39,525 bases of DNA, from NCBI GenBank assembly GCA_016871535.1, contig VHCZ01000027.1:1-39525 (forward strand), in the 5' to 3' direction. Of the stretch, positions 434-39,525 are shown piece by piece (within the stretch, counting starts at the first letter, position 1; the number at the start of each line of letters is the position of its first letter). The position numbers and the translations under genes are program-made. The notes beneath the pieces were generated by a model, which saw only the letters and a program-made list of their open reading frames with translations, searched no databases and was not told where the DNA came from. This stretch comes from Verrucomicrobiota bacterium (GTDB lineage Bacteria > Verrucomicrobiota > Verrucomicrobiia > Limisphaerales > SIBE01).

Positions 434-1948
434 GTGCTTGCTCTGAACGATAAACGCGTCCTGGTCGTTGGCCTGGGCATCAGCGGACGCGCCGCGGCGC
501 GATTGTTGCGCCAGGGCGGCGCGCAGGTGGCGGCGCTGGATGGGGTGGATTCCGGCGCGTTGCGGACCGAGGCGGAAGCGTTGCAGCGCCTGGGCGTGGA
601 GGTTTTCCTGGGATGCAAACGAGTTCCGTCCGGAATGTTCGATCTGGCCGTAACCAGTCCGGGTGTTCCTGCGGAATCGAACCTGATGCGCGAGATTCGG
701 CAGCGGAACATCCCGGTGATTGGCGAGTTGGAACTGGGCTGCCAGCACGCGCTTTGTCTGAACATCGCGATCACCGGCACGAACGGCAAAACCACCACGA
801 CCGAACTGGTCGAGCGTCTCCTGACGCATTGCCACCGCAAGACGCTCGCGGCGGGCAACATTGGCCGGCCCGTTTGCGAGGTGATCGAGCAAACTCGCGA
901 TCTGGATTTTCTGACATTGGAAGTCAGCTCCTTTCAACTGGAGACGATTCAGTATTTCCGCCCGGCGGTGGCCGTGCTCTTGAACATTACTCCGGACCAT
1001 CTGGATCGATACGCTTCCCTGGCAGACTATGCGCGCGCGAAAGCTCGGTTGTTCCAGAATCAACAGGCGTTTGACTGGGCCATCATCCAGACCGAAGCCC
1101 TGGCTTACATTCGATCCCTCGGAATGACGGTCCCATCCAAAATCGTCACCTTCAGCGCGAACAACCGGCGCGCGGACCTTTACCTGGACCGGGGGTTGTT
1201 GATCAGCCGATTGCCCGACTGGGCGGGTCCGTTGCTGGACATGGAGGAATGCCGGATTCGCGGCCCTCACAACGCGGAAAACTTGATGGCGGCCCTGGCG
1301 GTGGGCCGGGTGTTGCGGCTGCCGCTGGAACAAATGAAGGAAGCCCTGCGGAATTACGCGCCCGCTCCGCACCGGTGCGAGATCGTGGCCGAGATCAACC
1401 AGGTGCGGTTTGTCAACGACTCGAAGGCCACCAATCTGGACGCGCTCCAGAAAGCGCTGCTGGCGATGCCAGGCCCGCGTTCCGGCGACGCGAACGTGCT
1501 TCTGATTGCCGGCGGCAAAGACAAAGGGCTGGCTTACCACGACATCGGACCACTGCTGGCCCAGCGCGTGAAACACGCGTTTTTGCTGGGAGAAACCCGG
1601 GAAAAAATTCGCGCGGCGTGGAGTCTTTTTACTCCTTGCACCCTGGTGGAATCGTTGTTAGAAGCAGTTTCCAGAGCATTTGAGTGTGCACAATCAGGCG
1701 ACGTCGTACTGCTCTCACCCGCCTGTTCGAGCTTCGATATGTTTCAGAGCTACGCACATCGGGGGGAAGTGTTTCGCCAGGCGGTGGAGCAGGTCGCCCG
1801 ATCCTTGAATCAAAATGCCGTCAGTGGCAATACTACTGCTGGTAGCACCGTTGCGAACAGCGGTTCAGTCGCAAACGAGAACGACGCCCAAACCATTTCG
1901 CCACGAAGTTTCTCGAAGGAAAACTTCGCTGCGAATCATTCTTCGTGA
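434..1948 (+). CDS. murD: MurD, UDP-MurNAc-L-alanine:D-glutamate ligase
   Basis: Cytoplasmic Mur ligase adding D-Glu to UDP-MurNAc-L-Ala with ATP. No ATG is available near the N-terminus. GTG at 434 gives MLALNDKRVLVVGLGISG, a normal MurD beginning with its Rossmann-like UDP-binding domain. The frame is open further upstream, but that part overlaps mraY and is not MurD-like. Motifs seen: ATP P-loop GTNGKTTTT (~residues 115-123), LEVSSFQLE, LNITPDHLDRY, the C-terminal-domain motif NDSKATNLDA, LLIAGGKDKG and LSPACSSFDMFQSYAHRG. Recognisable MurD ends near nt 1812. About 45 further residues form a Ser/Asn/Thr-rich low-complexity tail, making 504 aa against ~450 usual. Confidence 0.96.
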   Translation: MLALNDKRVLVVGLGISGRAAARLLRQGGAQVAALDGVDSGALRTEAEALQRLGVEVFLGCKRVPSGMFDLAVTSPGVPAESNLMREIRQRNIPVIGELELGCQHALCLNIAITGTNGKTTTTELVERLLTHCHRKTLAAGNIGRPVCEVIEQTRDLDFLTLEVSSFQLETIQYFRPAVAVLLNITPDHLDRYASLADYARAKARLFQNQQAFDWAIIQTEALAYIRSLGMTVPSKIVTFSANNRRADLYLDRGLLISRLPDWAGPLLDMEECRIRGPHNAENLMAALAVGRVLRLPLEQMKEALRNYAPAPHRCEIVAEINQVRFVNDSKATNLDALQKALLAMPGPRSGDANVLLIAGGKDKGLAYHDIGPLLAQRVKHAFLLGETREKIRAAWSLFTPCTLVESLLEAVSRAFECAQSGDVVLLSPACSSFDMFQSYAHRGEVFRQAVEQVARSLNQNAVSGNTTAGSTVANSGSVANENDAQTISPRSFSKENFAANHSS

Positions 1949-1984
1949 AATCCTCATTCAACCCACGATAATCGCCATAAGTCC

Positions 1985-2812
1985 ATGAATACTCCCAGCC
2001 CGTTAATCCCCCAGGGATCGTTGCAGCAGCACAAGTCTCAGGGCAAATCCACGGTCCGCATTGCCGTCTTCACCATCATCGCTCTGCACGCCTTTATCTT
2101 CACCGGCCTGCTCATGCAATCCGGCTGCCGACCGGACGCGGATAAGACCGCGGGCGCCAAGCCGCCCGGAACGCTCACCGCTACGAATGACGAAGTGCCA
2201 AAGCTCGATTCCGGCTTTTACACCAGCTCGCGCGACCTTCCTTCCACGAATCTTCCCCCGCAGACGAACGTCTTCGTTCCGACTGATCTCGCTCACGCCA
2301 CGTCGGCGCCGCCTCCGGCTTTGACGACGACGGCCCCGCCTCTGGTTGCCGAGACTCAGGCTCAGGCGAAGGAATACACGATCGTGAAGGGCGACACGCT
2401 TGGCAAGATCGCCACGGCGCACGGCGTCACCGTCGCCGCTATCAACAAAGCGAACGAAGGGCTGGAACCGACGCGGCTTCGCATCGGCCAGAAGATCATG
2501 ATCCCGGCACCGGCCGCTCCGGCGGCAAGCACGACGGGTGGTTTAGGCGTCGCCGAACCGGCGGATGGCACCTCGACGGTTTACGTGGTCAAAGCGGGTG
2601 ACACATTGGCCAAAATCGCGAAGGAGTATAAGACCACCATCAAAGCGATCAAGGCGGCCAACAACATGAAGACGGACCGTTTGTTGGTGGGAAAGAAACT
2701 CAAACTGCCTGCGCCGCAAAAGGCCGGTGGCGCTTCGGCCGGAGCCACCAATCCCAGTTCCACTCTGATGGCCTCTCCGACCAGCGCGCCCTTGTCGAAG
2801 CCGAGACAGTAG
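1985..2812 (+). CDS. LysM-domain cell-wall-binding protein
   Basis: 275-aa envelope protein. Residues ~24-46 form one hydrophobic segment ending in QSGC. This could be an uncleaved anchor or an atypical lipobox, since the residue at -3 is Gln rather than Leu. A Pro/Thr/Ala-rich linker leads to two LysM repeats (about 128-175 and 198-245), each with the YTIVKGDTLGKIA / YVVKAGDTLAKIA start and a final IGQKIMIPAP / VGKKLKLPAP. LysM modules bind GlcNAc-containing glycan, so binding to septal or sacculus peptidoglycan is likely; no catalytic domain is visible. It sits between murD and ftsW, 5 nt before the ftsW ATG, which suggests co-expression and a role in wall synthesis or division. Confidence 0.88.
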   Translation: MNTPSPLIPQGSLQQHKSQGKSTVRIAVFTIIALHAFIFTGLLMQSGCRPDADKTAGAKPPGTLTATNDEVPKLDSGFYTSSRDLPSTNLPPQTNVFVPTDLAHATSAPPPALTTTAPPLVAETQAQAKEYTIVKGDTLGKIATAHGVTVAAINKANEGLEPTRLRIGQKIMIPAPAAPAASTTGGLGVAEPADGTSTVYVVKAGDTLAKIAKEYKTTIKAIKAANNMKTDRLLVGKKLKLPAPQKAGGASAGATNPSSTLMASPTSAPLSKPRQ

Positions 2813-2817
2813 CCGGG

Positions 2818-3948
2818 ATGAAAACCGCGGCGACCTTATTCGTGGTTTGTGTGGGCGCGCTCTTGTCGCTGGGTCTCGTCATCCTCTACAGCGCCGGCAT
2901 GAATCACGGCGGCGCGCGCTATTTGCTCATGCAACTGGTCTGGTGCGGCATCGGGTTGATGGCCTGCGCGGTCGCGGCCTGGATGGACTATCGCCGGCTC
3001 AAGAAGATTGCCTGGCTGTTGCTGGCGGCGGCCATCGTGATCCTCGGTCTGGTTTTGGTTCCCGGCATCGGCGTGCAAATCAAAGGCGCCCGGCGCTGGT
3101 TCGATTTGGGTTTCGCGAAATTCCAGCCTTCCGAAGCCGCCAAACTCGCGCTCATTATCGCGATCGCTCATTACGCGGACCGCAACCAGCACCTCATGGG
3201 GACGTTCAAACGCGGGTTGCTCCTGCCGGGGCTGCTCATCAGCGTCGTGCTGGCGCTTGTCTTTGTCGAACCCGACCGCGGCACGACCGTGCTTCTGGCC
3301 GCGACCACCGGCGTGATGTTGCTGATTGCGGGGGTTCGCTGGATGTATTTGGTTCCGCCAGTCGGCGCGGCGGTTTGCGGGCTGGCTTATTCACTCTGGC
3401 ACGATCCGGTCCGACTCGGCCGAATCTTAAGCTGGCTTCATCCGGAAGCGCACAAGGAAGGCGTCGGTTTCCAGGCCTGGCAAGCGCGGCTGGCGCTGGG
3501 CACCGGAGGATGGACTGGGTTGGGTTTAGGAAATGGACGACAGAAGCTCGGATTCGTTCCCGAACATGAAACGGACTTCATTCTGTCTGTCATTGGCGAA
3601 GAACTCGGCGCCGTGGCGACGCTGAGCATTGTCGTACTTTTCATCGTGCTCGTCCTTTGCGGGGTGTACATCGCCTGGAATTCGCGGGACTCCTTCGGAA
3701 TGCTGCTCGGCTCCGGGATTGTTTTTCTGATCGGATTCCAGGCGTTGATCAACATCGGCGTGGTGACCGGAGTTTTTCCGAACAAAGGGCTGCCCCTGCC
3801 GTTCATCAGTTACGGCGGGTCGAATCTGTTGCTCATGCTCACTTGCGTGGGCCTGATCATGAGCATCGCACGCCACGTGCGAGACCCGGTCGCCGTCGAA
3901 TCGGAACGTTACTCGTCGAAAGAAATCTTCGCCCCTCAGACGCCTTGA
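2818..3948 (+). CDS. ftsW: FtsW, SEDS-family septal peptidoglycan polymerase
   Basis: 376-aa polytopic membrane protein of the SEDS family (FtsW/RodA/SpoVE), the glycosyltransferase that polymerises lipid II at the septum with a partner class B PBP. Hallmarks seen: RRWFDLGFAKFQPSEAAKLA, FVEPDRGTTVLLAATTG (conserved Asp in the E-P-D-x-G motif), LGLGNGRQKLGFVPEHETDF, FSVIGEELG-like IGEELG, and the C-terminal VFPNKGLPLPFISYGGSN. About ten membrane segments can be drawn. The position within dcw favours FtsW over RodA. The ATG follows the LysM-protein stop by 5 nt, and the TGA overlaps the ATG of murG. Confidence 0.95.
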   Translation: MKTAATLFVVCVGALLSLGLVILYSAGMNHGGARYLLMQLVWCGIGLMACAVAAWMDYRRLKKIAWLLLAAAIVILGLVLVPGIGVQIKGARRWFDLGFAKFQPSEAAKLALIIAIAHYADRNQHLMGTFKRGLLLPGLLISVVLALVFVEPDRGTTVLLAATTGVMLLIAGVRWMYLVPPVGAAVCGLAYSLWHDPVRLGRILSWLHPEAHKEGVGFQAWQARLALGTGGWTGLGLGNGRQKLGFVPEHETDFILSVIGEELGAVATLSIVVLFIVLVLCGVYIAWNSRDSFGMLLGSGIVFLIGFQALINIGVVTGVFPNKGLPLPFISYGGSNLLLMLTCVGLIMSIARHVRDPVAVESERYSSKEIFAPQTP

Positions 3949-5156
3949 TGCGAATGCCAGAGCCAATCCCGTCCGTTGTCATCGCGTGTGGCGGAACAGG
4001 AGGACATTTGTTCCCGGGAATGGCCGTCGCCGAGGCGCTGCACCAGCGGTCGTGTCCCGTGACCTTGCTGGTTTCCGCCAAAGAGGTGGATCAACTGGCC
4101 GTCCAGGCCGCGCCCGAATTCGCCATCGAAACGTTGCCTGCCGTGGCGCTGCAAAATGGCGCGGGGCTCGCGTTTGTCCGCGGGTTCTGGAAGTCCTTTC
4201 GCCTGTGCTCGAAGCTTTTCGCGCGGCGACGCCCGCAAGCGGTGCTGGCCATGGGTGGTTTCACCAGCGCGCCGCCTATTCTGGCGGGCCGGTTCCGAGG
4301 CGCGGCGACGTTCCTGCACGAATCCAATGCCGTTCCCGGCCGGGCCAACCGCTGGCTCTCTTTTGTCGTGGACGAAGCATTCGTCGGGTTTTCGTCTTCG
4401 GCGCGGAGACTTTTCACGCAAGCCGTCCGAATCACGGGAACGCCCGTCCGCCCACAATTCAAACCCGCCGATGCCGGCGCGTGCCGCGTCGCGCTCGGCC
4501 TGGATCCGAACCGGCCCGTCCTGCTAATCATGGGCGGCAGCCAGGGTGCGCGCCGCATCAACGAGTTGGTGACGCAGTCGCTGGCGCAGATCGGGACTCG
4601 GGCGCCGCAACTGCAGTTCATTCATCTCACGGGCAGTTCCGACCAGGCGAGAGTGGCGGCGGCCTACCGGGCCAGCGGCCGGCGCGCTCTGGTGCGCGCG
4701 TTCTTGACCGAAATGGAACTGGCCTTGGGGGCCGCGACGCTGGCGATTGGACGCGCCGGCGCCTCTTCGTTGTCCGAACTGGCCGCGATGCGGTTGCCCA
4801 CGATCTTGATCCCTTACCCCTCCGCGGCGGACGACCATCAATTTCATAATGCGCGGGCTTACGTTGAGACGGGCGCAGCCGTGCATCTCGCCGAATCGAC
4901 GGTCAATCCCGAAATCCTGAGCCGCCACGTTCTGGAGTTGGTTGAGAACACTTCCGCGCGAGGCGAGATGAGCCGCGCGCTCGAACGATGGTTTTACCCT
5001 CACGCCGCGGAAGAAATCGCCGGGCGCATTTTGGAAATGATCAACTTTCCCGGAATCAGCGAGCGGGAAACGCAACCTTTGCCCGAAGCGATCGGTAAGA
5101 GTTCGGCCGCTCTCGACCGGAATGACGAAAACAGACTCGCATTCGCAGTGAAATGA
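3948..5156 (+). CDS. murG: MurG, lipid II synthase (GlcNAc transferase)
   Basis: Peripheral membrane GT28 glycosyltransferase adding GlcNAc to lipid I. ATG 3948 overlaps the ftsW TGA in a TGATG junction; ATG 3954, two codons on, is an alternative. Seen: N-terminal glycine-rich loop GGTGGHLFPGMAVAE (~residues 15-28), MGGFTSAPP, HESNAVPGRANRWLS, second glycine-rich loop MGGSQGARRIN (~194-204), GRAGASSLSELAAMRLP and the donor-binding IPYPSAADDHQFHNA. At 402 aa it is longer than the usual ~355; the last ~35 residues form a poorly conserved polar tail. Its TGA overlaps the murC ATG by 4 nt. Confidence 0.96.
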   Translation: MRMPEPIPSVVIACGGTGGHLFPGMAVAEALHQRSCPVTLLVSAKEVDQLAVQAAPEFAIETLPAVALQNGAGLAFVRGFWKSFRLCSKLFARRRPQAVLAMGGFTSAPPILAGRFRGAATFLHESNAVPGRANRWLSFVVDEAFVGFSSSARRLFTQAVRITGTPVRPQFKPADAGACRVALGLDPNRPVLLIMGGSQGARRINELVTQSLAQIGTRAPQLQFIHLTGSSDQARVAAAYRASGRRALVRAFLTEMELALGAATLAIGRAGASSLSELAAMRLPTILIPYPSAADDHQFHNARAYVETGAAVHLAESTVNPEILSRHVLELVENTSARGEMSRALERWFYPHAAEEIAGRILEMINFPGISERETQPLPEAIGKSSAALDRNDENRLAFAVK

Positions 5157-7735
5157 AATCCCTGACGCCAGCCGAAGTGGACGCGCTTCTGAAGACGCAG
5201 GCCTCCGGCGCGACGGTTTATCTGGTGGGCGCCGCGGGTTGCGGCATGAGCGGCCTGGGGCACCTTTTCCTGGACCTGGGCTGCAAGGTGGCCGGATCGG
5301 ATCTCGTCGAAAACGAGGCGACTCGCCAATTGCAGAAGCGCGGCGCCGCAGTTCAGAGCACTCACTCCGCGGACTGCCTCAAGGCGGCGTGCCCTTTCCT
5401 GGTTGTCCATTCTTCGGCCATTCCGGACGACAATCCGGAATTGCTGTCTGCGCGAGATCTCCGGGTTCCGGTGGCGCGGCGTGGCGCGGTCCTTGCGGCG
5501 CTGCTGCGCAGGCAGCGCGGGATTTGCATTGCGGGCATGCACGGCAAGACGACGACTTCGGCGCTGGCGGCGCATGCGTTGGAGCAACTGGGAGCCGCAC
5601 CGAGTTATGCGATTGGAGCGGAAGTTCCTCAACTGGCGCCGCACGCGCGATTCGTGAACGCAACGCTTCAGGAAGAGGGCCAAGGTTTTCGAACCGTGCG
5701 TACGGCCCATGAACCGGTAAGGACGCGTTCCACCGCGTCCCAGAAATTGTCTTTCCGATCGCAGAGTAAAGTCAGGGACGGAGTGGAATCCGTCCCTACC
5801 AGATTCAGGGGAAGTCCGGACTCTGCGCCGTTTTTTGTCGTGGAAGCGGACGAAAGCGACGGCACGCTGGCTGATTTTCAACCCGAGCATGCCATTCTTC
5901 TCAACCTCGACGCCGAGCACCTGGATCACTTCGCGGATCTCGATGGCGTGTGCGCCGCGTTTCAACAATTCGGCGCTCAGGTCTCCGGCCGATTGATCTA
6001 TTGCGCCGACGACGAACGCCTGGCGCGGTTATTCGCCGGGAAATCAAACGCCCTCTCGTACGGCTTTCATGCCAGGGCGCAATATCGAGTTGAATGCCTG
6101 ACCGACGCGTCACGCCTCACGCCTCACGCCTCACGTCTTACCCCTTTCAAAGTCTTCCACGGCGACGCCCGCCTGGGCGAATTCACGACCGCGTTGCTGG
6201 GCCGGCAAAACGTCTCCAACGCCGTTGCCGTCGTCGCGTTGCTGCACCAACTTCAGTTTCCACCCGACGCCATCGCTCGGGCGATTCGGTCGTTTCGCGG
6301 CGCCACTCGCCGCCAACAGGAGTTGTATCGCGACGAAGGCTGCCGCGTTTTCGACGACTACGGACATCATCCGACCGAGATTCGCGCCACTCTTCGGGCG
6401 CTGAAGGAACTCGCGCCGGCGCGGCTGCTGGTCGCATTCCAGCCGCACCGGTTCAGCCGCACCCAACAGTTGATGGCCGAGTTCGCCGCCTGTTTCGAAG
6501 AGGCAGACCGGCTCTGGCTGACGGAGATCTATCCCGCCAGCGAACCGCCGATTCCCGGCATCGACAGCACGGCGCTGGCCGGGGCGATCCGGCGGCAGGG
6601 ACAGGACGTGGAGCTCGTTCCGACACTCGGCCAACTTCCGGATCAAGTCCGAAACGACATCGCTTTCGGCGATTTGGTGCTTTTTCTCGGCGCCGGTGAC
6701 ATCACCGAGGCGGCGCACGCGCTGGCCGATCAGTTGGAGCAGGCGGCGGCCGGGAGGAGGCAATCGCTGGCATCCGATCTGGCCCGCCGATTGTCGCCGG
6801 CTTCGGTCGTGCGCCACGACGAACCTTTGGCCAAACGCACCACGTTGCGCGTCGGAGGCCGGGCGGATCTCTACGTGGAGCCGGCTTCAGAAGCGGATCT
6901 GGCCGCGGTTCTGCATTTTTGCGCCGAACACGAGCTGTCGTTTTTGATGCTTGGGCGTGGCTCGAACCTGTTGATTCAAGACCGCGGCATTCGCGGCGTG
7001 GTGATTTCCCTGGCGCATCCGCAGTTCTGCCGCATCGAAGTTTGCGGAACCGAATTGGTGTGCGGTGCGGGCGCGAAGCTGAAGGCTGTGGCCGTCGAAG
7101 CCAAACGGCACGGCTTGAGCGGACTGGAATTTCTCGAAGGCATTCCCGGCAGCGTGGGCGGCGCGCTACGCATGAACGCCGGCGCGATGGGCGGGGCGAC
7201 GTTCGAGATGGTGGCATCCGTGCGGTTCATGGATTTCGCGGGCCGCGTTCAGGAACGGAGCGCTGAGGAAATCGAGGTCGAATACCGCGGTTGCCCGCAC
7301 TTCCGGCACCACATCGCCTTGAGCGCGGTGCTGAAAGCCCGGCCCGAAGCTCCGGAAGCGATCGCGGCCAAAATGAATGCCTGCAGCCAGAAACGCTGGA
7401 AATCCCAACCGGCCGCGCCCAGCGCCGGCTGCATGTTCAAGAATCCCGTGTCCATCCCGGCTGGCCGATTGATCGAGGAGCTCGGTTTGAAAGGCACGCG
7501 CGTCGGCGGCGCGGTGATCTCCGGCGTGCATGGAAATTTTATTGTCAACGACGGCGGCGCCACGGCCGAGGACGTGCTCGAGTTGATCGATTTTGTGAAA
7601 CAGAAGGCCCGTTCTGCGCGAAGCATCGAGCTGGAGACCGAAGTGGAAATCATCGGCGAAATCGCGCCGTGCAAAGCAGGGCTTCCGGCGTCCACACCGC
7701 TTGAACGGAACTCCGCGGTCCCGGCGAAGCTATGA
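5153..7735 (+). CDS. murC/murB: MurC-MurB fusion: UDP-MurNAc:L-alanine ligase / UDP-GlcNAc-enolpyruvate reductase
   Basis: 860-aa bifunctional protein. Residues 1-~530 are MurC: VGAAGCGMSGLG, P-loop GMHGKTTTS (~127-135), EADESDG (~229-235), LNLDAEHLDHF, DDYGHHPTEI (~400). Residues ~545-860 are MurB: FAD-binding RVGGRADLYVEP, GRGSNLLIQD, GIPGSVGGALRMNAGAMG, catalytic-loop SAGCMFKNP (Cys where E. coli MurB has Ser229) and ETEVEIIGE. The reaction order is reversed relative to the domain order (MurB makes the MurC substrate). A MurB/MurC fusion is, to my knowledge, described from Verrucomicrobium spinosum. Odd: two in-frame insertions of repeat DNA in MurC, at ~residues 182-219 (REPIN-like element H1) and ~320-328 (heptamer tandem). 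It overlaps murG and ddl by 4 nt each. Confidence 0.95.
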   Translation: MKSLTPAEVDALLKTQASGATVYLVGAAGCGMSGLGHLFLDLGCKVAGSDLVENEATRQLQKRGAAVQSTHSADCLKAACPFLVVHSSAIPDDNPELLSARDLRVPVARRGAVLAALLRRQRGICIAGMHGKTTTSALAAHALEQLGAAPSYAIGAEVPQLAPHARFVNATLQEEGQGFRTVRTAHEPVRTRSTASQKLSFRSQSKVRDGVESVPTRFRGSPDSAPFFVVEADESDGTLADFQPEHAILLNLDAEHLDHFADLDGVCAAFQQFGAQVSGRLIYCADDERLARLFAGKSNALSYGFHARAQYRVECLTDASRLTPHASRLTPFKVFHGDARLGEFTTALLGRQNVSNAVAVVALLHQLQFPPDAIARAIRSFRGATRRQQELYRDEGCRVFDDYGHHPTEIRATLRALKELAPARLLVAFQPHRFSRTQQLMAEFAACFEEADRLWLTEIYPASEPPIPGIDSTALAGAIRRQGQDVELVPTLGQLPDQVRNDIAFGDLVLFLGAGDITEAAHALADQLEQAAAGRRQSLASDLARRLSPASVVRHDEPLAKRTTLRVGGRADLYVEPASEADLAAVLHFCAEHELSFLMLGRGSNLLIQDRGIRGVVISLAHPQFCRIEVCGTELVCGAGAKLKAVAVEAKRHGLSGLEFLEGIPGSVGGALRMNAGAMGGATFEMVASVRFMDFAGRVQERSAEEIEVEYRGCPHFRHHIALSAVLKARPEAPEAIAAKMNACSQKRWKSQPAAPSAGCMFKNPVSIPAGRLIEELGLKGTRVGGAVISGVHGNFIVNDGGATAEDVLELIDFVKQKARSARSIELETEVEIIGEIAPCKAGLPASTPLERNSAVPAKL
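5696..5810 (+). repeat. REPIN-like palindromic repeat H1, inside murC
   Basis: 115 bp almost identical (roughly 8 differences by eye) to the reverse complement of 26976-27090. It consists of two opposed small hairpins: GGACGCG-ttccac-CGCGTCC near 5720-5740 and GGACGGA-gtggaa-TCCGTCC near 5777-5796, bounded by GGTAAGGAC and GTCCCTACC. Weaker outer arms read cccatgaacc / attcaggg. The hexamer loops are reverse complements of each other, while the stem bases differ and still pair. It is read in frame as part of MurC and encodes a peptide ending RDGVESVPT; the same peptide appears wherever this repeat is translated in this window. Confidence 0.88.
6110..6135 (+). repeat. Heptamer tandem repeat (TCACGCC) inside murC
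   Basis: Three and a half consecutive copies of TCACGCC, the last diverging into tcacgtc. Read in frame they give SRLTPHASRLTP, in the loop between the central and C-terminal parts of MurC, where other MurC proteins have a short variable stretch before the N-A-V-A helix region. The 7-bp unit is not a codon multiple; three units (21 bp) add seven residues without a shift. Confidence 0.7.
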
Positions 7736-15903: not shown

Positions 15904-15974
15904 AGGCTGTTGCGGCGGGATTGACTCTCATAGCGCGATTAATGGCCAAGGCGACTGGGAATCGCAAGGACTAA

Positions 15975-16247
15975 GAGCGTGTCCGAAAATTCCGCGGGGT
16001 CCTGTTTTCGCGCCAAAGGCCGGATGGCGAGGCGCGACGAAGGAGAATATCCTCCCTGGATCTTCGACTGAGGAGCAACGAAGCCAGGCGGCCTTTGGCG
16101 CGAAAACCCTCCGGGCGGCGGGTCTTTTGTCCGTGGCCTGCGTTGGCTCGGTCCTTACAGCCCGCGTTGGGGATGCTCGGACCTCGCCGCCTTGGCCACA
16201 GCCAAAATCCCTCGCCGCAGGACCCCGCGCAATTTTCGGACAGGCTC
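15975..16247 (+). mobile_element. MITE-like element A1 (273 bp)
   Basis: Terminal inverted repeats of 30 bp (GAGCGTGTCCGAAAATT... at the left, the same with two changes at the right), flanked by a direct TAA at 15972-15974 and 16248-16250. Inside is a perfect 17-bp inverted repeat (TTTTCGCGCCAAAGGCC, 16005-16021 and 16090-16106) enclosing core 1 (cgacgaaggag ... cgactgaggag). A second, looser stem encloses core 2 (ggggatgctcgg). No transposase is encoded; one frame is open throughout without resembling a protein. Ends of this type and a TNA target duplication resemble IS5-family (IS1031-type) elements, so a non-autonomous derivative is likely. Confidence 0.85.
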
Positions 16248-16250
16248 TAA

Positions 16251-16444
16251 GTAACCCTGAGTTAACTGAATCAGGCGTACTGCTCCTTTGGTTCTATTGT
16301 GGACTGGATGGGCGTGGCGTAATCCTTCGCGCATGAAAAATTTGCAGAACAGTTCGTCCGCATTGATGAACGCGGACTTTCCCTCAACCTCGCGCTCCGA
16401 GGTTCATGGAAAGTTCTCTTGGTTTCAGAACTATGCACGCGGCC
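16251..16444 (+). other. Gap between element A1 and repeat D1
   Basis: 194 bp with no convincing gene or structured repeat. A short inverted pair around 16375-16410 (gcggactttccctc / gaggttcatggaaagt) is weak. I see nothing firm here. Confidence 0.4.
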
Positions 16445-17287: not shown

Positions 17288-17875
17288 TCAGACCGTGGGA
17301 TAGAATACACTTTGCCAGGAGGGATTCTGGCCAGCGGCGAGGAGCGAGCGAGGCGGTGTATCCACCGATTTACAACGAGCGAGCGACGAAGCGGCTGGCC
17401 AAAAGACCCCTGGCCCTGCGGGTTGCGCCGCATTTGGGATCTGGCTTCGTTGCTCCTCAGTCAATCCGTATGCGAGAAGCGTCGCGAACCACGACGATCC
17501 CCGGAGCGCGGACAACCGTGCCCGCGCGATCCGCGGGTTCGACTAAATCCGCCGCTGTTTGGGAGGGAGAGGCTCCCGCCGAACCTGGCATTCCATTGAG
17601 AATGGGTTCGGTATGACCCTTTCCCTCCCATTTTCGGGGTCACGAAATGTCCAAACCCGAGGGGAACGAAAGTCCCATTGCTGAGCGCGCTGGCTCCGCG
17701 CAAATTGACGCACGAACGAAAGACCAATCTCACGGATTATTTGCTGACGGGAGGTCAGGTCTCTGTTCACCAGCCTTTCTACTGGACGGCGCTGGCGCTC
17801 TCACTGTTGGCAGGCTTCCTCGTGCCGCTGCCAAAAGGGTTGAAAACCCGGATTGAGTTCACTAGGTTGGCTCGC
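17288..17875 (+). other. Repeat-derived gap before the binding-protein gene
   Basis: About 17318-17483 resembles a worn member of the A/B class: arms ttctggccagc / gctggccaaaa enclose gcgaggagcgagcga ... aacgagcgagcgacgaag, followed by a half-lobe ending ctggcttcgttgctcctcagtc (core 1 in the A2 orientation). Around 17560-17635 is another inverted pair (gggagggagaggctcc ... ccctttccctccc). The frame of the binding protein is open back to 17678 and holds one hydrophobic stretch (YWTALALSLLAGFLVPLP), perhaps the end of a lost membrane protein. I would not call it a gene. Confidence 0.4.
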
Positions 17876-18865
17876 ATGAAACCTGCGCCTCTTCTCTCAC
17901 TCTTGATCTCTCTTCTGACGCCGTTGGGATTTTCAGCCAGTGCGGCGGAGAAAGCCTACACGCTCGCCGTCATTCCCAAAGGCACCACGCACGAATTTTG
18001 GAAGTCCATCAACGCGGGCGCGTTCAAGGCGCGGCAGGAATTGAATGAAAAGGGTTTGAAGGTCGAGGTCATTTGGAAAGGTCCGTTGAAAGAGGACGAC
18101 CGCGACCAGCAAATCCAGGTGGTCGAGAACTTCATGTCCCGCCGCGTCAACGGCATCGTGCTCGCCCCGCTGGATTCGCAGGCGCTCGTCCGGCCCGTGC
18201 ACAGCGCGATCTCCGCCAAAGTGCCCGTCGTCGTCATGGACTCTGATCTGAATTCGGACCGCTACGTCAGTTTTGTCGCGACGGATAACTTCAAAGGCGG
18301 CGTGATGGCTGGAGAACACCTGGCGAAGCTGCTGGGCGGAAAAGGCAACGTGATTCTGTTGCGCTACCAGGTCGGTTCCGCGAGCACCGAGAATCGCGAG
18401 AAGGGATTCCTGGAAGCCATCCGCAAGTTTCCCGAGATCAAACTGATCTCTTCGGATCAATTCGCCGGTCCCACCCGCGAGACGGGCTATCAAGTCTCCC
18501 AGAATCTCCTCAATCGCTATGGCCGGGAGGTGGACGGCATCTTTTGTCCGTGCGAACCGCCCACGATTGCAATGGCGATGGCGCTCCGCAACATTGGCAA
18601 GGCCGGCGGCAAAGTGAAAATGGTCGGCTTCGACGCCGGGTCCCAGTCCGTGCAGGATTTGAAGAACGGTGACGTGCAAGGGCTGATTGTGCAGAATCCG
18701 GTTTTGATGGGTTACACCGCCGTGATGACGATGATGAAACATCTCCAGGGGCAGCAGGTCGAGAAACGGGTCGATACCGGCGTTTATCTCGTCACCCGGG
18801 AAAACATGGAGCAACCGGAGATCAAAGAATTGCTCTATCCACCGTTGGAGAAGTATCTGAAGTGA
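17876..18865 (+). CDS. Sugar ABC transporter substrate-binding protein (RbsB-like)
   Basis: 329-aa exported periplasmic binding protein of the Peripla_BP_4 type. ATG 17876 gives a clear signal peptide (MKPAPLLSLLISLLTPLGF, cleavage near ASA-AE); the frame upstream is not part of it. Seen: AVIPKGTTHEFWKSINAG (ligand-facing aromatic after the first strand), VNGIVLAPLDSQALVRPV, KVPVVVMDSDL, ATDNFKGGVMAGEHLAKLLGG, STENREKGFLEAI, VDGIFCPCEPPTIAMAMAL and MVGFDAGSQSVQDLKNG. This is the fold used for ribose, galactose, xylitol and related ligands; the exact ligand cannot be read from the sequence. It is followed by MITE A2 and then an RbsA-like ATPase, its likely partner. Confidence 0.9.
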   Translation: MKPAPLLSLLISLLTPLGFSASAAEKAYTLAVIPKGTTHEFWKSINAGAFKARQELNEKGLKVEVIWKGPLKEDDRDQQIQVVENFMSRRVNGIVLAPLDSQALVRPVHSAISAKVPVVVMDSDLNSDRYVSFVATDNFKGGVMAGEHLAKLLGGKGNVILLRYQVGSASTENREKGFLEAIRKFPEIKLISSDQFAGPTRETGYQVSQNLLNRYGREVDGIFCPCEPPTIAMAMALRNIGKAGGKVKMVGFDAGSQSVQDLKNGDVQGLIVQNPVLMGYTAVMTMMKHLQGQQVEKRVDTGVYLVTRENMEQPEIKELLYPPLEKYLK

Positions 18866-18949
18866 CTCTGGAAAGACCGCTGAGCGCAAGTGAACGGGCG
18901 TCCTTCTGCGCGTCGGCGCCTTGGAGTCGGCAGACTTCTCTGCTCCTTA

Positions 18950-19222
18950 GAGCGTGTCCGAAAATTGCGCGGGGTCCTGCGGCGAGGGATTTTGGCTGTG
19001 GCCAAGGCGGCGAGGTCCGAGCATCCCCAACGCGGGCTGTAAGGACCGAGCCAACGCAGGCCACGGACAAAAGACCCGCCGCCCGGAGGGTTTTCGCGCC
19101 AAAGGCCGCCTGGCTTCGTTGCTCCTCAGTCGAAGATCCAGGGAGGATATTCTCCTTCGTTGCGCCTCGCCATCCGGCCTTTGGCGCGAAAACAGGACCC
19201 CGCGGAATTTTCGGACACGCTC
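18950..19222 (-). mobile_element. MITE-like element A2 (273 bp)
   Basis: Same length as A1 and nearly identical to its reverse complement. The 30-bp ends differ from each other at one position and are flanked by TTA at 18947-18949 and 19223-19225. Same lobe 1 palindrome (ggttttcgcgccaaaggcc / ggcctttggcgcgaaaac) and cores. It sits between the binding-protein and ATPase genes; its right end is 24 bp before the ATPase ATG, so it must either be transcribed through or supply the ATPase promoter. Confidence 0.87.
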
Positions 19223-19246
19223 TTAAACTTTGAACTTGGAACTCCA

Positions 19247-26903: not shown

Positions 26904-26975
26904 GGCCATCCCGGCCAGCCGCTCGACGGACTTGGAGCACGTCCAGATCAACGCGCTGGGATAAGCTCGCCCTTC

Positions 26976-27090
26976 CCATGAACCGGGTAGGGACGGATTC
27001 CACTCCGTCCCTGACTTTACTCTGCGATCGAAAAGACAATTTCAGGGACGCGGTGGAACGCGTCCTTACCAGGTCATGGGCCGTGCGCAC
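26976..27090 (-). repeat. REPIN-like palindromic repeat H2
   Basis: 115 bp, reverse complement of H1 in murC. Two opposed hairpins GGACGGA-ttccac-TCCGTCC and GGACGCG-gtggaa-CGCGTCC are bounded by GGTAGGGAC and GTCCTTACC, with outer CCCATGAACC / GGTCATGGG arms. It lies in a gene-free stretch downstream of the sulfatase stop. The minus strand also reads an open frame identical in character to the inserted MurC peptide. Confidence 0.85.
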
Positions 27091-27172
27091 GGCTGGCTGG
27101 ACGTGGAAGCTTCGCTTGAGGCGCCCAGACGCGATCTGCGTTGTAACGCTGTAACGGCCTCCGCCATCCCAC

Positions 27173-29054: not shown

Positions 29055-29216
29055 TTAGAGCAGTGCCAAGCGGCGGTCGATATGTTGGGACACCGCCTTG
29101 TGCATGTGAAGAAGGCCGATTTGAAATAGGATGCGAACCAGCGGACGTGCTTGGCGAGCGCTTTAAGCCGAGCTACTGTCCAGACCGTGGGATTGACGAC
29201 AGATCGACCGGAGAAC

Positions 29217-29387
29217 CGTAGCGCAGATTTTCAATCTGCTGTATCGCCGATTTCCAATCGGCAGGGCGCCGGCAAGTCCCAGCGTGCTCGGACTGGGGAG
29301 ACGCCCCGCAGAATACAATTCTGCGATACGGCAGAGTGCAACTCTGCGCTACGAGCTTTGTCGTCCATCCCGCGGACCAAGCAGTAT
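29217..29387 (+). repeat. Four-hairpin repeat I1 (171 bp)
   Basis: Nearly identical to I2 (38882-39051). It contains four short perfect hairpins in series: GCAGATT-ttc-AATCTGC, GCCGATT-tcc-AATCGGC, CAGAAT-aca-ATTCTG and GCAGAGT-gca-ACTCTGC, the outer two bracketed by CGTAGCGC / GCGCTACG. A conserved unstructured tail (gagctttgtcgtccatcccgc) ends at gcagtat, where the ATG of the next small ORF begins. Confidence 0.85.
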
Positions 29388-38008: not shown

Positions 38009-38194
38009 TGTTTAGCGTGGTAGGGACGGATTCCACTCCGTCCCTGACTAATCCTTGAGGCGTCTGTTGAAGGGAGAGACGGACAAAGGAAAAACCAGGA
38101 AACCTCCGTTGGCACATCGTCTCTTTCTGGGCGGCGGTCTGCCTCAAGGCTTGATTGGGGACGGAGTGGAATCCGTCCCTACCAACGCTAAACA
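38009..38194 (+). repeat. Composite palindromic repeat H3 (~186 bp)
   Basis: The ends form a ~40-bp near-perfect inverted repeat starting TGTTTAGCGTGGTAGGGAC. Each end contains the H-family hairpin GGACGGA-ttccac-TCCGTCC (left 38023-38043; right inverted). The middle (38052-38150) is unrelated to that of H1/H2. It lies between leuD and the giant protein gene. Confidence 0.8.
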
Positions 38195-38790: not shown

Positions 38791-38881
38791 GGGCGGAGAC
38801 TCTGCGTCTGGCGCGGGAAGTTTTCAAGCGCGCATCTTGGCCACGCCCAATGCAGGGTGCATCCACAAGTTGGCGGTGAAG
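38791..38881 (+). other. leuD upstream gap
   Basis: 91 bp between the leuD start and repeat I2. Should contain the leuD promoter; no boxes are convincingly visible and no other feature is seen. Confidence 0.35.
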
Positions 38882-39051
38882 CGTAGGGCAGATTTTCAAT
38901 CTGCTGTATCGCCGATTTCCAATCGGCAGGGCGCTGGCAAGTCCCAGCGTGCTCGGACTGGGAGACGCCCCGCAGAATACAATTCTGCGATACGGCAGAG
39001 TGCAACTCTGCGCTACGAGCTTTGTCGTCCATCCCGCGGACCAAGCAGTAT
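38882..39051 (+). repeat. Four-hairpin repeat I2 (170 bp)
   Basis: Second full copy of family I, differing from I1 (29217-29387) at only a few bases, including gtagggca for gtagcgca at the left and one fewer G before agacgcc. Same four hairpins and same tail ending gcagtat. The next 83 bp (39052-39134) show nothing recognisable. Confidence 0.85.
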
Positions 39052-39305: not shown

Positions 39306-39399
39306 GGGTCTGTGCAAAAATAACTTCCGGTTTTGCTGGAGGCGATTTCGCTTTCTGGCGAGGCACGACGAAGGAGCATAGCCAGGGCTCTGCGACTGA
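39306..39399 (+). mobile_element. Left part of element B3, interrupted by A3
   Basis: Matches B1 from its GGGTCTGTGCAAAAATAA end through lobe 1 arm and core 1 up to cgactga, where A3 begins. Preceded by TAA (39303-39305), as for B1. The rest, if present, would lie beyond A3, outside the window. Confidence 0.8.
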
Positions 39400-39525
39400 G
39401 AGCGTGTCCGAAAATTGCGCGGGGTCCTGCGGCGAGGGATTTTGGCTGTGGCCAAGGCGGCGAGGTCTGAGCATCCCCAACGCGGGCTGTAAGGACCGAG
39501 CCAACGCAGGCCACGGACAAAAGAC
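39400..39525 (-). mobile_element. Element A3, partial at window edge, nested in B3
   Basis: 126 bp identical or nearly so to the left end of A2 (GAGCGTGTCCGAAAATTGC ... ggacaaaagac), running off the window. It starts right after TGA of the B3 core (39397-39399), which would be its TNA-type target duplication. Confidence 0.85.

Follow-up and report, generated by a model that had tools for sequence, protein, structure and literature searches.

Within the window, a 39,525-nt stretch that constitutes contig C27 of the assembly (G000:C27), the essential murC gene contains an in-frame copy of a dispersed palindromic repeat. It is very likely that a REPIN was copied into murC after the split from the nearest sequenced congener, and that the in-frame insertion was tolerated and is probably neutral. 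The membership of the insert in the repeat family, its position in frame, the empty site in the congener, the intact enzyme motifs, and the predicted disorder of the added residues are all direct results of our analysis. Here we set out the evidence for this reading, weigh it against four alternatives, and relate it to a second finding, that RAYT transposase domains lie in frame within essential genes of the same phylum.

The insertion in murC

The host gene is a murC-murB fusion of 860 aa (5153–7735, + strand), identified with Pfam, TIGR01082, and a search of its own genome. It forms part of a division cluster with the order ftsW, murG, murC-murB, ddl, ftsQ, ftsA, ftsZ. Pfam matches Mur_ligase, Mur_ligase_M, Mur_ligase_C, FAD_binding_4, and MurB_C along this frame, which scores 392.8 bits with the murC model TIGR01082 (cut-off 335.1) and also passes the curated MurB cut-off. 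The frame stays open all through the repeat, the MurC and MurB domains are complete, and the GMHGKTTT and EADESDG motifs are intact together with the other invariant Mur-ligase columns. Thus, the preliminary description of MurC and its fused MurB as open and motif-complete is borne out. The nearest named relatives of this MurC place the genome with the Pedosphaera/Limisphaerales-like Verrucomicrobiota. At the protein level, MurC is 78% identical to that of the congener, G001. The two also have in common a tandem TCACGCC-type microrepeat (SRLTPHASRLTP) in a second variable MurC loop (6105–6145).

One could suppose that this murC is non-functional and that activity comes from a second, unassembled copy, since the assembly (6.67 Mb in 460 contigs) is 97% and not 100% complete. 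However, the invariant columns are intact and the MurB domain downstream is still in frame. Moreover, a search of the whole 97%-complete assembly recovered no second murC. The sole other full-length relative, on C56, was rejected as a murC: it is Mpl, which scores 473.6 bits with TIGR01081, above the cut-off, and falls below the cut-off of the murC model. The remark that no other murC was in view, first made for the window, therefore holds for the entire assembly, and we consider a non-functional murC highly improbable.

Split alignment against the empty site kept in G001 defines an in-frame insertion of 138 nt (46 codons, residues ~175–221) at 5676–5813 (±3 nt) on the + strand. The DNA length difference between the two genes is exactly 138 nt, and 50 of 64 flanking positions are identical with no further gap. 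The preliminary description had placed a 115-bp element in frame between the P-loop region and EADESDG; frame and position both stand, and the length of the real insertion is 138 nt. The distance from the P-loop to ESD is 96 residues here and 50 in G001, with a median of 45 over 94 aligned MurC rows, in which some genomes were fetched twice. No comparable insert occurs in any other MurC among these 94 rows. By alignment, then, the insert is unique to this genome's MurC among the MurCs examined. Protein-level conservation of the stretch in relatives was not found, the insertion being absent there, and an ancestral loop held by protein selection was rejected on the same ground.

A comparable event is seen in G009, which belongs to another family of the same order. 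Its MurC carries a palindromic insert (L296:3382-3487, GTGGGACAGGC...GCCTGTCCCAC) that is likewise in frame and lies in the second MurC loop, not in the loop that holds the insert described here. The REPIN family of this insert has 101 matches in G009 and differs from the murC family of the present genome. The first MurC loop of G009 (L296:3010-3087) contains a further palindrome, an 88% inverted repeat. Because different REPIN families lie in different MurC loops, murC has been entered in frame independently, at least twice.

These observations bear on the possibility that assembly misplaced a copy of the repeat in murC. The insertion site was indeed read from a fragmented, 460-contig assembly, some of whose contigs end in repeats. 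However, such a join would have had to exit murC and return to the homologous position without loss of frame, with flanks that are gap-free relative to G001, and the same kind of event would have to be explained in an independent genome. An assembly error is therefore implausible, and we give it very little weight.

Structure prediction locates the insert in a loop of an otherwise well-modeled protein. AlphaFold2, run with 46 relatives, gives MurC a mean pLDDT of 89.9, and only residues 182–213 fall below 50, so that the insert lies in a predicted disordered loop. Foldseek matches the model best to the MurC proteins of E. coli and H. influenzae, and a phmmer comparison with solved MurCs is interrupted at this very position, mapping query residues 167 and 227 onto residues 165 and 170 of E. 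coli MurC. Together with the alignment, these results indicate that MurC carries an extra, probably disordered loop while its enzyme fold remains intact, in line with the initial suggestion of a tolerated loop. Since fold and motifs are kept, the insertion can be regarded as tolerated and probably neutral.

Selection could instead have favored the insert, either for a new MurC function or for mRNA hairpins that regulate murCB-ddl-ftsQAZ expression. Treated as single-stranded DNA, the insert forms a more stable fold than shuffled sequences do (z −2.64), and REPs can serve as RNA elements (PMC3733652), both of which would suit such a role. However, the insert is absent from the congener and from all other MurCs examined, its loop is predicted to be disordered, and other in-frame copies of the family sit in unrelated proteins. 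A selected insert is thus improbable, and we retain the reading of a tolerated, probably neutral insertion.

The repeat family and its movement

Aligned copies of the family contain a core, GGTA(A/G)GGACG...CGTCCCTACC, in which two REPs of opposite orientation flank a conserved spacer. In murC, the 5′ REP (5717–5740, + strand) comprises a GTAA tag at 5717–5720 and the hairpin GGACGCG-TTCCAC-CGCGTCC (pattern match 5721–5740), and the inverted 3′ REP (5776–5799, − strand) comprises the hairpin GGACGGA-TTCCAC-TCCGTCC (pattern match 5776–5795) and a GTAG tag at 5796–5799. The spacer between them (5741–5775, + strand) is conserved in an alignment of 30 copies. A second hairpin (GGTTCATGGG...CCCATGAACC) adjoins many family copies. 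Within the murC insert it is present as a degenerate piece on the left (5676–5716, + strand; aligned consensus GGTTCATGGGAAGC...CCCATGAACC, with CCCATGAA at 5706) and as a stub on the right.

The tags and the pairing of REPs were counted over 134 distinct REPs collected from this genome. GTAG precedes 56 of 74 REPs with GA/TC stems (background 0.13%), and GTAA precedes 34 of 50 with CG/CG stems. Every REP pair is inverted (44/44), with a start-to-start spacing of 55 in 23 pairs and of 132–135 in another 12 of the 44. The family also has the GTAG REP superfamily's trait of a short GC-rich stem-loop that is dispersed in high copy. Given its GTAG/GTAA tags, the inversion of all pairs, and the recurrent spacing, the murC insert is, as judged from its sequence, a REPIN of a GTAG-tagged REP family with adjoining hairpin sequence. 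The REPIN build proposed in the preliminary description is thus upheld.

A genome-wide search for the unit, suggested at the outset, yielded 258 candidates. Forty of these were scored, and all 40 proved to be copies, with 81–100% identity. The REP half-site GGACGNNTTCCACNNCGTCC has 201 matches in the genome versus none for a reversed control pattern, which excludes chance. Within the window, the pair of repeats first noticed at 5696–5810 and 26976–27090 is real and slightly longer, 5694–5814 and 26972–27092. The two copies run in opposite directions and share 93% identity over 121 nt, and the genome search recovers them at E 6.9e-47. The second copy (− strand) is apparently non-coding, as had been supposed, with no coding signal on either side. 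Repeat comparison also identified a related REPIN at 38018–38184 with the same REP arms and another spacer; its pattern matches, at 38024–38043 (+) and 38159–38178 (−), are 135 apart from start to start. Both congeners, G001 and G002, share the REP family, which dwindles across the rest of the taxonomic family and order.

The window holds other repeats as well. Two near-identical arrays of short palindromes (CAGATTTTCAATCTG, CGATTTCCAATCG, CAGAGTGCAACTCTG), at 29209–29387 and 38874–39051, probably represent another REP-type cluster. Inverted repeats of 287 nt and 98% identity (15965–16251 and 18946–19232) enclose a gene for a periplasmic sugar-binding protein (17678–18865), and the contig end falls within another copy of this repeat (39388–39525).

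Where the family's copies lie was assessed at 87 sampled sites, first with a classifier of reading frames that had been trained on genes of the window and then with Pfam. The majority lie outside genes and about five are in frame within a gene, counts of in-gene copies being lower bounds because, at its threshold, the classifier failed to detect the left side of murC. In a class-III aminotransferase (L009:1026-2612), the Pfam domain is matched on both sides of the in-frame insert, and residues 150 and 215 map to residues 138 and 144 of a relative with solved structure, which are nearly adjacent. Another in-frame copy interrupts the PSD1 domain of a DUF1549/DUF1553 protein (L160:1372-3699, − strand), a PMT-like glycosyltransferase (L168:770-2605) also carries the murC repeat family in frame, and an epimerase (L137:1196-2272) probably carries a single REP in frame. 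Other open frames that span a copy (such as L005, L007, and L175) were rejected, with no domain support on both sides. At only one site did the classifier's result suggest a gene that continues in the same frame across an insert containing stops. Copies that are mostly non-genic and rarely stop-bearing form the pattern expected after selection against disruptive insertions.

The genome also encodes the kind of enzyme that could have moved the repeat. A search for RAYTs, likewise suggested beforehand, returned 14 matches to NF047646, and PF01797 was matched too. Over the ~1.5 kb scanned around RAYTs, none in this genome is directly flanked by a murC-type REP. Around relatives' RAYTs, the same scan turned up two cases: in G002, one murC-family REP at a distance of ~160 bp from a RAYT, and in G008, a RAYT remnant that has related REPs next to it. 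As pointers to a cognate RAYT, these two cases are suggestive only.

Alternatively, recombination or slippage during replication between adjoining hairpins, and not a RAYT, might have brought the repeat into murC. An imperfect direct repeat, TTCAGG(GG)AAG, occurs at both ends of the insert and resembles TTCATGGGAAG of the adjoining hairpin, which fits this route, as does the lack of a cognate RAYT among those scanned. However, the REPIN organization, the conserved spacer, the GTAG tag, and the coexisting RAYTs are marks of RAYT-mobilized REPINs. We therefore allow recombination or slippage a minor share of the probability and favor mobilization by a RAYT.

Under such mobilization, a RAYT, that is, a Y1 HUH transposase, would have moved the REPIN in trans into the central ATPase domain, at a loop that varies naturally and lies after the P-loop helix and before the strand that runs to EADESDG. 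The net gain of 138 nt would have been divisible by three by chance, keeping the frame. The REPIN core itself has no stop codons in one of its forward frames and, in most cases, none in two reverse frames. A length that is a multiple of three, together with this stop-free family frame, explains why the murC frame stayed open. The insert would then be translated as ~46 extra, probably disordered residues, and would have survived because neither the reading frame nor the fold was lost.

RAYT domains within essential genes

RAYTs themselves occur inside essential frames. The sole alaS of this genome (L190:809-4999; G000:C141:5808-9998) is one stop-free ORF of ~1398 codons that holds the alanyl-tRNA synthetase domains and two complete RAYT domains in frame, with further repeat-derived stretches also in frame. 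By comparison, the alaS ORFs of relatives without RAYTs span 839–962 codons; the congener G001 has only the C-terminal end of alaS on its contig. The ORF of a YoaA/DinG-type helicase (L188:176-3295; G000:C42) similarly contains a RAYT domain in frame, with flanking GTAGGGCAGGCTTCCAGCCTGCC REPs.

With the alaS-borne RAYT as query, a search of 293 genomes from the order gave matches at E≤1e-30 in 30, every one of them in an open frame 579 codons long or longer. Thirty loci were read (L261–L290), of which 26 are alaS, three PriA (L288–L290), and one ThrRS (L283). A phylum-wide set of 388 genomes added seven matching genomes (L371–L377), five with alaS and two with RecG; the latter, L371 and L373, had been taken as ThrRS, an assignment we rejected. 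In total, about 30 sampled Verrucomicrobiota genomes have a RAYT in frame within alaS, and the RAYTs at these alaS, PriA, ThrRS, and RecG loci belong to one subfamily. These insertions use two recurrent sites, with 24 and 10 cases. The presence of one (L277) in G103, a single-contig genome, indicates that they are not only an effect of fragmented assemblies.

The complete RAYTs retain their catalytic HUH and Tyr motifs, the HUH motif being recognizable in every alaS case except one. As in the AlaRS core, pN between RAYT domains, at ~0.1–0.35, is far lower than pS, at 0.64–0.97 and near saturation, and their amino-acid sequence is thus conserved. RAYT and AlaRS distances are weakly correlated (r 0.36, Mantel p ~0.01), which is compatible with partly vertical inheritance. 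In G009, the N-terminal part of alaS (802–1995) and the RAYT with the rest of the gene (1674–4793) lie in different frames where the insertion begins to join them (L242; G009:C178, reverse strand); this alaS-RAYT may be truly frameshifted and broken, a split gene, or the product of a sequence error. Elsewhere, single open frames join a RAYT domain to a DnaE-like C-terminal part (L247:2-1669; G009:C74), to an ATPase resembling a type I restriction R subunit (L246:3-2984; G002:C686), and to a cyclase-family protein (L250:1569-3284, minus strand; G005:C92). These three may be true fusions or effects of neighboring frames.

We found no description of a RAYT within alanyl-tRNA synthetase in the literature searched, which included only a minority of subscription journals. 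A 2018 survey of these transposases excluded proteins that were longer than expected, treating them as fusions or as errors of annotation (PMC6006769). The in-frame RAYTs of alaS are thus the part of our results that could be new. The evidence leaves evenly balanced the broader proposal that the Verrucomicrobiota RAYT/REP system inhabits essential frames, with RAYTs as internal domains and murC-like REPINs as its non-autonomous side. If this is true, RAYT/REPINs would be frame-compatible parasites of essential genes, and their imprecise removal would tend to harm the host.

Relation to known systems

The murC case is not new in kind, since a 2013 report already described proteins with GTAG REPs in frame (PMC3733652), and in-frame REPs within transposase genes followed in 2018 (PMC6006769). 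The novelty claimed in the preliminary description therefore stands for murC and for this lineage, not for in-frame REPs as such; the main text of the 2013 report makes no mention of MurC. What murC offers is a clear case in which mobile non-coding DNA has joined an essential enzyme and a congener still shows the empty site. In addition, unrelated REPIN families have entered this same enzyme, MurC, twice. Together, the murC and alaS cases make it testable whether selection has favored REP/RAYT elements of Verrucomicrobiota that are compatible with the frame and reside in essential genes, a question that dates from the discovery of REPs in genes for repair and for tRNA synthetases.

Among the systems closest to the murC insert are the intragenic GTAG REPs of the 2013 report (PMC3733652). 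These are palindromes and dimers, often in informational genes, and Opitutus terrae, a member of the Verrucomicrobia, is the species richest in them. Their inserts measure ~20–30 residues, or 43–82 in some species, and were presumed to lie in loops or linkers. Both sets are GTAG-tagged palindromes or dimers in frame within coding sequence. The murC family differs in REP sequence and host lineage, and the murC case adds the congener's empty site and a structure model. Like the REPINs described in 2011 (PMC3116915), the murC family disperses as a unit of two inverted REPs and a spacer in a genome that has RAYTs; it differs by its adjoining second hairpin and by having one copy in an essential gene.

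Two other systems place palindromic repeats within proteins. Rickettsia RPEs are translated as in-frame protein inserts, as we infer for murC. However, RPE-4 and RPE-6 bear CGTC tags, have no transposase association (PMC3733652), and, given the GTAG/GTAA tags of the murC family, do not belong to the same family. In tnpA-REP genes of subclass 2.4, REPs lie in frame and leave the frame unbroken, as here (PMC6006769); the target there is the transposase gene, whereas here it is a cell-wall ligase. Finally, if RAYT/REP elements are indeed frame-compatible parasites of this kind, inteins would be their counterpart, except that RAYT/REP elements have no known splicing.
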